Below are positions 26,646 to 29,945 of a DNA stretch of 36,743 bases, piece after piece. This stretch comes from Bacillota bacterium (GTDB taxonomy: Bacteria > Bacillota_I > Bacilli_A > ML615J-28 > CAG-698). Where the stretch lies: contig JAEEHM010000065.1 in the NCBI GenBank assembly GCA_016280895.1, forward strand, positions 1 to 36,743. Direction: 5' to 3'. The translations under genes were made by a program, and so were the position numbers. Positions within the stretch are counted from its first letter, which is position 1. Each line of letters starts with the position of its first letter. The notes beneath the pieces are model-generated. The model did not search any database. It worked only from the letters and a program-made list of their open reading frames with translations, and was not told the DNA's origin.

Positions 26646-26680
26646 TAACTTAAAAATATCTTAAAAAATACCGATTTTTA

Positions 26681-26710
26681 TTGACAGGATATTAGCATAT
26701 ATCTTATAAT
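26681..26710 (+). promoter_or_regulatory. Promoter of the riboswitch-flotillin unit
   Basis: A perfect TTGACA (26681-26686), an 18-bp spacer and a perfect TATAAT (26705-26710). The start near 26717 is about 15 nt before the riboswitch. Confidence 0.85.
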
Positions 26711-26731
26711 TATATTGTAAGTGAATATTAA

Positions 26732-26819
26732 CTAAAAGGGAGTAGAATACCTCAATTTGGTTTTTAATATCGTCAGGACGATTGAATCCGGTATTAAATT
26801 AAATTTCGAGACTTTTAAT
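26732..26819 (+). ncRNA. yybP-ykoY-like (Mn2+) riboswitch
   Basis: The order of conserved pieces fits the manganese-sensing yybP-ykoY aptamer. There is a P1 5' strand with AAAAGGGAGTAG (26734-26745), a small P2 hairpin ATACC/GGT, then TTTAATATCGTCA (26763-26775) and CCGGTATTAAA (26788-26798), whose arms form P3 with the UCGUCA and CCGG loop sequences. CGAGACTTTTAA (26808-26819) closes P1. The P1 3' strand is also the first arm of the terminator at 26809-26845, so the two structures exclude each other; metal binding would then favour read-through. Assigned by eye from the remembered consensus. Confidence 0.78.
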
Positions 26820-26845
26820 CGATTGCGATTAAAGGTCTTTTTTTA
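26809..26845 (+). terminator. Riboswitch expression-platform terminator
   Basis: AGACTTTTAATCG (26809-26821) pairs with CGATTAAAGGTCT (26826-26838) over 13 bp, with one U-G, followed by T7. Its first arm contains the P1 closing strand of the aptamer. Confidence 0.88.
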
Positions 26846-26899
26846 GCTTTATTCATTTAAATGTATCCATTTTAATAATGTGAGAATGGGGGTTATATT

Positions 26900-28411
26900 A
26901 TGAAAACATTATTATTTTTATTGAGTACTCCAGTATTGATTGGAGTTGTTGTTGGCATTGCTGTAGTATTATTGATTCTATTTATTGCAAGTGGCTATGT
27001 AAAAGCTGCACCTGATACAGCAATAATTATAAGTGGTCTTGGCAAAAGAAAGATTTTGATTGGTAAAGCTGGTTTTAAGATTCCTTTCTTTCAAAGAATC
27101 GATAAATTATCTTTAAGAGTATTCCAAGTTGATATTAAGACAGATGAATCTATTCCAACATCTAACTTTATTAACATCAAAGTTGATGGTGTTGCTAATT
27201 TAAAGATTTCTTCTGATCCAAAATTATTAGATTTAGCTGCTGAATCTATTTTGAATATGAGCGAAGGTGATTTGATTGCACAAGTTCAACAAGTGCTTCA
27301 AGGTAATATGCGTGAAATTATTGGTACTGTTGATATTAAAAGACTTGTTCAAGATAGACAAGGTGTTGCTCAATCAGTAAAAGAAAATGTAGTTCCTGAT
27401 ATGGCTAAGATGGGAATTGAAGTTGTTAATTTCAATATTCAATCATTCTCTGATGACAATCATGTTATTGAAAATTTAGGTATTGATAATATTTCACAAA
27501 TTTCTAAGGATGCTGCTATCGCAAAAGCAAATGCTGATAGAGATGTTACAATTGCGAAGGCTTTAGCTGAAGAAGCTGCTAACAGACAAAGAGTTGAGGC
27601 TAATCAATTGATTATTGAACAAAACACTGAGCTTTCTTTGAAGCAATCTTCTCTAAAACAAAAAACAGATACAGCACAAGCTACTGCAGATGCTGCATAT
27701 GCAATTGAGGAACAAAAGAGAAAACAAGAAATCAATATCGCACAAATCAATGCTGATATTGCTAAAAGAGAAAGAGAAGTTGAATTAGGTCAAAAAGAAG
27801 TAGAATTACAAGAGAGAAAGTTACAAGCACAAATTAATAAACAAGCTGAAGCTGAAAAATATGCTGCTGAACAAAAAGCTATTGCTGATTTATTTACTCG
27901 TCAAAAAGCAGCTGAAGCTAAAAAATATGAGCTTGAACAAGAAGCTGAGATGCAAAAGATCAGAGCTGAAGCTGATAAGGTTGCTAAAGAAAAAGCAGCT
28001 GAGGCTTTAAAGATTGAAGCATTAGCTAAAAAAGAAGCTGCACTTGCAGAGGCTGCTGGAATTGAGGCTAAGGGTAAGGCTGAAGCAGATGCTATTAAAG
28101 CAAAAGCAGATGCTATGAAACAATATGGTGAGGCTGCAACACTTCAATTAATTCTAGATTCTAATGTGTTACCTGAAATGATTAAAGCATATTCAGAACC
28201 AATGGCATCTGCTATGTCTAAGATTGATTCTATCACTATGTATGGTGAAGGTAATACTGCTAAATTAAATGAAGAGATTACTAAAAATGGAACTCAAATT
28301 ATTAAAGGATTAGAATCTGCTACTGGTTTAGATATCAAATCTTTAATAGCTGGTTATTTAGGTGGTAAATTAATCACTAAAAAAGAAGAAGAAAAGACTG
28401 AAGAAAAGTAA
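26900..28411 (+). CDS. floT: Flotillin-like SPFH membrane-domain protein
   Basis: 503 residues. One N-terminal membrane helix (about 10-31), then an SPFH/Band 7 domain (YVKAAPDTAIIISGLGKRKILIGKAGFKIPFFQRIDKL... to ...VVNFNIQSFSDDN), and a long Ala/Glu/Lys coiled-coil (about 195-420) with the EA-rich repeats of flotillins. The C-terminal segment (AATLQLILDSNVLPEMIKAYSEPMA) is also flotillin-like. It organises membrane microdomains, as YuaG/FloT does in Bacillus. The ribosome site is a GGGGG string (26888-26892). Control by a manganese-type riboswitch upstream is unusual for this family; no NfeD partner gene is adjacent. Confidence 0.92.
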   Translation: MKTLLFLLSTPVLIGVVVGIAVVLLILFIASGYVKAAPDTAIIISGLGKRKILIGKAGFKIPFFQRIDKLSLRVFQVDIKTDESIPTSNFINIKVDGVANLKISSDPKLLDLAAESILNMSEGDLIAQVQQVLQGNMREIIGTVDIKRLVQDRQGVAQSVKENVVPDMAKMGIEVVNFNIQSFSDDNHVIENLGIDNISQISKDAAIAKANADRDVTIAKALAEEAANRQRVEANQLIIEQNTELSLKQSSLKQKTDTAQATADAAYAIEEQKRKQEINIAQINADIAKREREVELGQKEVELQERKLQAQINKQAEAEKYAAEQKAIADLFTRQKAAEAKKYELEQEAEMQKIRAEADKVAKEKAAEALKIEALAKKEAALAEAAGIEAKGKAEADAIKAKADAMKQYGEAATLQLILDSNVLPEMIKAYSEPMASAMSKIDSITMYGEGNTAKLNEEITKNGTQIIKGLESATGLDIKSLIAGYLGGKLITKKEEEKTEEK

Positions 28412-28416
28412 AAAAA

Positions 28417-28447
28417 GAGAGCTTAATATTCAATATTAAGCTCTTTT
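28417..28447. terminator. Intrinsic terminator between floT and lysS
   Basis: GAGCTTAATATT (28419-28430) pairs with AATATTAAGCTC (28432-28443), with T4 and T-rich sequence after. A-rich sequence before it lets it serve the convergent lysS as well. Confidence 0.88.
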
Positions 28448-28460
28448 CTTATATATATAA

Positions 28461-29945
28461 TTAGTTTTGTTTACGCATTTGTGGGAATAGTAGTACATCA
28501 CGAATTGATTCAGTACCAGAAAGTAACATTACTAATCTATCAATACCGATACCAATTCCACCTGTAGGTGGCATACCATATTCTAATGCATCTAAGAAGT
28601 CTTCATCGATTTCACATGCTTCTTCATTTCCTAATTCTTTTTCCTTTAATTGATTTTCGAATCTTGTTCTTTGATCAATTGGATCGTTTAATTCAGTGAA
28701 GGCATTTCCATATTCATGTTTACAGATGAATAATTCAAATCTTTCTGTAAATCTTTCATCTTTGCTCTTTTTAGCAAGAGGAGATATTTCAATTGGATGT
28801 CCATACACAATTGTTGGTTGAATTAATGTTTCTTCAACATATTTTTCAAAGAATAGGTTGATGATATGTCCATATGATTCTTCATGTTTTTCTACTTTGA
28901 TATCATGCTTTTTCGCAAGTTCTAATGCTTCAGCTGTATCTTTCACTTGATAGAAGTCTACACCACATGCTTCTTTGATAGCATCTACCATATGGATACG
29001 TTTGAATGGTACACCTAAATCAATTGTGTAGCCTTGGAAATCAACAGTAGTAGTACCAATGCATTCTTTAGCGATATATCTAAATGAATTTTCAACAAGA
29101 TCCATCATTCCATACATATCTGAATATGCAAGATATGCTTCCATTGTAGTGAATTCCGGATTATGAGTTGCATCCATTCCTTCATTTCTAAATTGACGGC
29201 CAATTTCATATACTGCTTCCATGCCACCAACGATTAGACGTTTAAGTGCAAGTTCAGTTGCAATACGTAAATAGAAATTAGAATCTAGTGCATTATAATG
29301 TGTGATGAATGGACGAGCATTAGCTCCACCTAGTATTGGATGTAACATTGATGTTTCTACTTCTACGAAGCCATTATCATCCATATATTTTTGAAGTGCA
29401 CGAATGATTTTTGGTCTTAAGAAAGCTACACGTTTTGAATTCTCGTTCATGATTAAATCAACATAACGATGTCTTCTTGCTTCTTCACGGTCTTGTAGTC
29501 CATGGAATTTTTCAGGAAGTGGACGAAGTGCTTTAGCAAGATGTGTATATTTTAAAGCTTTAACTGTTACCTCACCAGTATTTGTGATCATTACTTCTCC
29601 ATTAATACCAATGATATCACCAATATCAGCCTTATCATATAAATAGAATTCATCTTCTGTTAAAGCATCTTGTCTAACATAGATTTGGATTAAGCCATAT
29701 TTATCTTGAATATGCATAAAGCCAGCTTTTCCTTTTCCACGTTTTGACATAATACGTCCAGCTACTGATGCAGGAATGTGCATTTCATGTAATTGTTCCT
29801 TATCAGCATCTTTGTATTTTTCTTTTAGATCGATTGAATAATCACATCTTTCGAATCTTTGACCGAATGGATCAACACCTCTTTCTCTTAAATCATTCAT
29901 CTTTTGACGTCTTACTATTTCTTGATCGTTTAATTCTTGTGCCAT
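28461..29945 (-). CDS. lysS: Lysyl-tRNA synthetase, class II
   Basis: 494 residues, full-length class II LysRS. The N-terminal OB-fold anticodon domain (about 55-160, with [21 protein letters not shown]) precedes the catalytic domain; motif 2 is [20 protein letters not shown] and motif 3 [21 protein letters not shown] lies 8-10 nt before the ATG. The leader is short, with no T-box. Monocistronic. Confidence 0.97.

Follow-up and report, generated by a model that had tools for sequence, protein, structure and literature searches.

The window, meaning the whole 36,743-nucleotide stretch of DNA analysed here, contains a flotillin (floT-like) gene that is preceded by a strong promoter, a compact aptamer of the yybP-ykoY type and an intrinsic terminator overlapping the aptamer. 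The features of the locus are as follows.

26681-26710, + strand: promoter TTGACA-18-TATAAT (sigma-70-type), 12 of 12 consensus positions
26733-26738, + strand: 5′ strand of P1 (switch helix P1.1), UAAAAG, pairing with CUUUUA at 26812-26817
26738-26745, + strand: 5′ side of L1, GGGAGUAG, the last G of which opens helix P1.2
26749-26761, + strand: P2 hairpin ACC-UCAAUUU-GGU, weak in the window (3 pairs) and stronger in relatives
26764-26772, + strand: 5′ strand of P3.1, 9 pairs with 26789-26797
26773-26779, + strand: L3, UCAGGAC, compared with L3 of the crystal structures (PMC6754395)
26780-26788, + strand: P3.2 hairpin GAU-UGA-AUC, from the flotillin-leader alignment A2
26789-26797, + strand: 3′ strand of P3.1 with the conserved CGG, from alignment A2 and 45 transporter leaders
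26805-26812, + strand: 3′ strand of P1.2 and 3′ side of L1, UUCGAGAC, with pair exchanges across relatives
26808-26844, + strand: intrinsic terminator, 14 pairs, loop of 4 and U-tract, -16.4 kcal/mol, with covariation
26888-26892, + strand: ribosome-binding site GGGGG, 3′ of the terminator, read from the sequence
26900-28411, + strand: flotillin (floT-like) gene, monocistronic, 503 amino acids, SPFH/Band_7 domain
28412-28450, no strand assigned: terminator-like hairpin AGAGAGCTTAATATTCAATATTAAGCTCTTTTCT between floT and lysS, read from the sequence

The floT product matches Pfam Band_7 at 1e-22, and reading of its translation reveals an N-terminal membrane segment followed by a Glu/Ala-rich coiled region, as expected of a flotillin (SPFH) protein. 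Since lysS (28461-29945) is convergent with floT, the gene stands alone; the original prediction had placed the leader directly before a solitary floT and behind a consensus promoter, and both points hold. At locus L010, too, the flotillin gene forms a monocistronic unit, and a ClpB-like gene converges on it. TTGAC or TTGAA boxes are likewise found upstream of the leaders in many relatives. Ahead of the -35 region, a (TA)CGATTTTT stretch is conserved (26660-26686 in the window; also at L010, L102, L105 and L122); in some relatives it forms the right arm of a AAAATCGTAC..GTACGATTTTT hairpin, which is probably a terminator that recurs in this group.

yybP-ykoY riboswitches normally turn on manganese-export pumps. 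The aptamer in the window spans 26733-26817 (~85 nt) and harbors the core motifs of this class in order, namely GGGAGTAG (26738-26745), TCGTCA (26770-26775), CCGG (26788-26791) and CGAGAC (26807-26812). A combined search for the four motifs gives a single match in the window and none in 100 shuffles, so that the predicted arrangement is confirmed. L1 displays the GGGGAGUA ... CGAGA sequence of the class, framed by P1 and P1.2, and L3 displays a (U/A)CA with its invariant adenosine, A26775, followed by CCGG/YGG. In crystal structures, Mn2+ is held by five phosphoryl oxygens and by N7 of the invariant L3 adenosine, the L. lactis L3 reading UCA(41)AUUC and that of X. oryzae ACA(48)UACU (PMC6754395). 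Judged by sequence, A26775 corresponds to this Mn2+-binding adenosine (A41 in L. lactis, A48 in X. oryzae). GGGAGTA in L1 and the C-A of L3 are both invariant over 59 leaders (14 preceding flotillin and 45 preceding transporter genes), and much variation is seen at the two positions following UCA, in flotillin and ATPase leaders alike.

The leader of E. coli alx is a proven Mn2+/alkaline-pH riboswitch, and the E. coli mntP leader is also a proven Mn2+ riboswitch. The L3/P3.2 module of alx (CGUCAUUAC-GAU..AUC-CGG; in full CGUCAUUAC-GAUGUG..CACAUC-CGG) is nearly identical to that of the window (CGUCAGGAC-GAU..AUC-CGG), in which the GGGAGUA and GAGAC of alx are present too. In L3, UCAUUAC of alx and UCAAUUC of L. 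lactis (PMC6754395) share a UCA-N3-C form, to which UCAGGAC of the window conforms. In contrast to the window, the alx leader carries extra stems between P3 and GAGAC, and alx encodes a TerC-type Mn2+ exporter. Relative to the class as described by the Rfam model RF00080, the likeness extends to L1 (GGGAGUA..(C)GAGA), to L3 (CGUCA with the invariant A) and CCGG, to the sharing of the P1 3′ strand with the terminator in an ON-switch layout, and to sister copies before Mn exporters; the differences are a short aptamer without P4, which like alx lies below RF00080 detection, and a flotillin rather than a transporter as the gene concerned.

The lack of a match to RF00080 had been named beforehand as grounds for rejecting the assignment, and indeed no match to the window element is found with this 177-position model even at E<=10. 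The proven Mn2+ riboswitch of alx (L132, 1871-2005) is equally missed at E<=10, so that the null result at the window is uninformative, and the E. coli mntP leader reaches 40.9 bits, below the cut-off of 45. A sister leader preceding mntP (L069) scores 33.9 bits (E 1.5e-5). The absence of useful RF00080 matches over the window's own genome and 60 relatives likewise reflects the model itself. The gathering score of RF00080 is a detection threshold and not a defining property of the yybP-ykoY class; the model misses many compact members, including most compact ones from Bacilli and one (alx) that has been proven experimentally.

A second Rfam model, RF02617 (SSRC10), matches the window over its whole length at 26733-26844 with 37.8 bits (E 7.7e-6), short of its gathering score of 56 bits, and gives weak matches over relatives, two of which (L002 and L005) precede mntP; those at L001, L003 and L004 resemble plain terminators and were rejected. 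The order of motifs and the terminator are the same in SSRC10 and the window; unlike the window element, SSRC10 is filed as an sRNA and precedes a calcium-transporter-like gene in S. pyogenes. As SSRC10 was detected by Northern blot as an ‘sRNA’ (PMC3675131), the terminated leader might act in trans as a small RNA, with floT being merely the next gene. This explanation is very improbable: the gene that follows SSRC10 encodes a ‘putative calcium transporter’ (PMC3675131), as befits a terminated riboswitch leader, and the sister elements are followed on the same strand by ion-transporter genes or by floT. The leader preceding a Ca/Mg-ATPase gene in S. agalactiae carries a yybP-ykoY annotation (PMC4448216). 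Together with the position of SSRC10, this makes it most likely that RF02617 describes a terminated yybP-ykoY leader mis-filed as an sRNA.

Independent evidence for class membership comes from a covariance model, R1, from which flotillin leaders were held out. A loose motif pattern run over 296 genomes of the taxonomic class returned many obvious relatives, of which 58 leaders, each possessing a P1 helix and none located before flotillin, were kept. Fifty-seven have a usable downstream gene, and by Pfam class every one of these encodes an ion transporter: 22 P-type cation ATPases, 18 MntP, 9 Na_Ca_ex, 3 Na_Pi_cotrans, 2 CNNM/CorC, 2 CitMHS/ArsB-like and 1 TrkH. The Mn/cation transport gene typically found downstream in this class is thus present behind all 57 sister leaders and replaced by flotillin in the window. 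R1 was built from 45 of the non-flotillin leaders and searched against the window, the flotillin loci and the E. coli leaders. On the mixed alignment of these 45 leaders, RNAalifold recovered no more than 8 pairs, belonging to P1 and a portion of P1.2, because P2 and P3 had been misaligned by MAFFT; R1 was retained for its sequence power, and P2 and P3 were tested on the flotillin-only alignment instead. The window element scores 63.4 bits (E 1.2e-15), the second highest value among flotillin leaders, and 13 other flotillin leaders are matched at E 9e-10 or better. The proven Mn2+ riboswitches of E. coli are found as well (alx, E 0.001; mntP, E 0.0046). At flotillin loci lacking the element R1 finds none, the sole further match being at chance level (E 0.7).

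The element has been conserved before floT. Flotillin loci were gathered via flotillin homologues in named genomes, and the element lies directly 5′ of floT in at least 14 genomes of Anaeroplasma-related bacteria from gut and rumen: the window, Anaeroplasma bactoclasticum ATCC 27112 (L097), L098, L100-L104, L109, L112 (same record as L010), L113, L116, L117 and L119. Within this Anaeroplasmataceae set (L097-L119) the same element precedes orthologous floT genes, in some cases with CAAGAC or UGAGAC instead of CGAGAC. On alignment A2, which comprises the 14 flotillin leaders, 83.3% of the aptamer cells are paired and 14 pairs are changed on both sides, compared with 35-55% and 3-9 pairs in slid controls; these counts are not independent events, owing to shared ancestry, yet they are unmatched by slid versions of the same alignment. 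The inner pairs of P1 are kept in nearly all 14 leaders, 6 of the 9 pairs of P3.1 show changes on both sides, P1.2 exchanges G-C for A-U and A-U for G-C across relatives, and the terminator has 93.5% of its cells paired with 6 pairs changed on both sides. The pairing proposed for the window is therefore present in relatives, and assignment to the yybP-ykoY class is supported by this covariation, the R1 match, the near-identity of the core motifs to alx and the transporters behind the sister elements. Several flotillins of 71-82% identity have no element upstream, and control of floT by the element is accordingly not universal; the flotillin tree, in which flotillins of related clades lack the element, requires 3-4 gains or losses of it.

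The weak P2 of the window (3 pairs), and the fact that the copy at floT is the sole one found in an incomplete genome, could be taken to indicate a decayed riboswitch that has lost its switching. Such decay is extremely improbable given that the core motifs are all intact, that the promoter and terminator are near perfect and that the R1 score ranks second among flotillin leaders.

The terminator (GAGACTTTTAATCGATTGCGATTAAAGGTCTT-TTTTT) lies at 26808-26839; shuffled sequences contain 0.0 terminators on average. Nucleotides 26812-26817 belong both to the P1 3′ strand and to the 5′ arm of the terminator, as in other members of the class. The predicted reuse of the P1 strand is thus correct; the length had been put at 13 bp, and the tool gives 14 pairs with G-U counted. 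According to the published mechanism, Mn2+ stabilises P1.1 and so blocks the overlapping terminator (PMC11087558), and the parts of this competition are all present in the window leader. Folding without metal favours the terminator, and the docked fold (-7.8 kcal/mol, against -16.1 kcal/mol for the energy minimum) is not the minimum on its own; a fold that depends on metal and tertiary contacts would be expected to behave in this way, which is no proof of switching. On this basis RNA polymerase would start at the strong promoter upstream of the leader. At low Mn2+ the weak P1 would fail to hold, 26812-26817 would be drawn into the terminator and polymerase would halt at the U-tract near 26840. 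At high Mn2+, L1 and L3 would dock, A26775 and the L1/L3 phosphates would bind the ion, P1 would be stabilised, and exclusion of the terminator would allow floT to be transcribed. The extra flotillin might then help membranes, or membrane-bound exporters, to cope with high Mn2+. It is very likely that the leader constitutes a yybP-ykoY-class genetic ON switch that acts on floT through transcription termination and raises its expression at high Mn2+; we infer Mn2+ as the ligand, the occurrence of regulation and a benefit of flotillin at high Mn2+ from the features described.

A flotillin-type sub-lineage could conceivably retain the yybP-ykoY fold and have switched to another divalent ion, or serve mainly as a pH switch. 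L3 varies after UCA, the UCAGGAC of the window offering no U for the U-turn of L. lactis, and several flotillin leaders carry CAAGAC in L1; moreover, yybP-ykoY leaders of E. coli respond to alkaline pH (PMC9603457), and termination in S. agalactiae rises in acid (PMC4448216). However, P-type ATPase leaders too have CAAGAC and the L3 variants UCAAGAC, UCAGAAC and UCAGCUC, all 14 flotillin leaders retain the metal-contacting adenosine, and known members use pH and Mn2+ together, with alkaline pH helping (PMC9603457). A change of ligand, or a role mainly as a pH switch, is unlikely.

The flotillin target forms part of a larger set of elements. Over 11 other genomes with a flotillin element, R1 finds 2 to 6 copies each and 38 in total, of which 11 precede floT and 17 precede MntP, Na_Ca_ex, P-type ATPase or Na/Pi transporter genes (transporters having been assigned partly by eye from the sequences). 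Nine copies (L161, L166, L167, L170, L174, L177, L178, L186 and L189) lie before genes that encode small membrane proteins, zinc-ribbon proteins, lipoproteins or proteins of unknown function, including a DUF3784 protein, and one further copy (L173) completes the count. Most of the non-transporter targets carry the flotillin-type element (GAAACC.. UCGUCA..), and this sub-type therefore seems to have spread in the lineage. The riboswitch class itself has been described before; what appears to be new is its use at flotillin, together with the lineage-specific growth of the Mn regulon in Anaeroplasmataceae. A tentative reading, with slightly less than an even chance of being right, is that the riboswitch co-induces an envelope programme (flotillin, small zinc-ribbon membrane proteins and lipoproteins) with MntP, Na/Ca exchangers and P-type ATPases. 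If so, rising Mn2+, together with alkaline pH, would be the trigger, and membrane organisation would form part of the metal-overload response. In the window's own metagenome-assembled genome (84% complete), the only R1 copy found is the one at floT; MntP was not found in it, and the Na/Ca exchanger found there has no element in front. The closest genome compared (G001; same genus, 94% complete) has neither this flotillin nor any R1 element.

In B. subtilis, the TerC proteins MeeF and MeeY co-purify FloT and FloA, and meeY is controlled by a Mn riboswitch (PMC10550928); no other measured physical link was found in the literature searched. By analogy with this co-purification, flotillin could plausibly act near Mn exporters or in the metal loading of secreted proteins. 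The conserved pairing of riboswitch and floT fits these data and offers a direct connection, open to experimental test, from metal homeostasis to membrane microdomains; high manganese probably leads these cells to reorganise their membranes. Mycobacterial efflux platforms were considered as a further precedent and dropped, as the foci formed by the zinc-efflux proteins PacL1/CtpC exclude FloT, which is dispensable (PMC9374683). No paper describing a yybP-ykoY riboswitch before flotillin, or one in Anaeroplasma, was found in the literature searched, most subscription journals lying outside it.

Several sister elements of the Mn type precede genes outside the usual MntP/TerC/ATPase list: Na/Pi cotransporter-like genes at L060, L080, L081 and L184 (NptA-like), CorC-like genes at L045 and L046 (CNNM/CorC), and a TrkH gene at L083. 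Others lie before CitMHS/ArsB-like permeases (L072 and L079, the latter at G034:C79). In sequence, the element at L079 resembles that of the window very closely, and the L079 permease may be an unrecognised Mn exporter.
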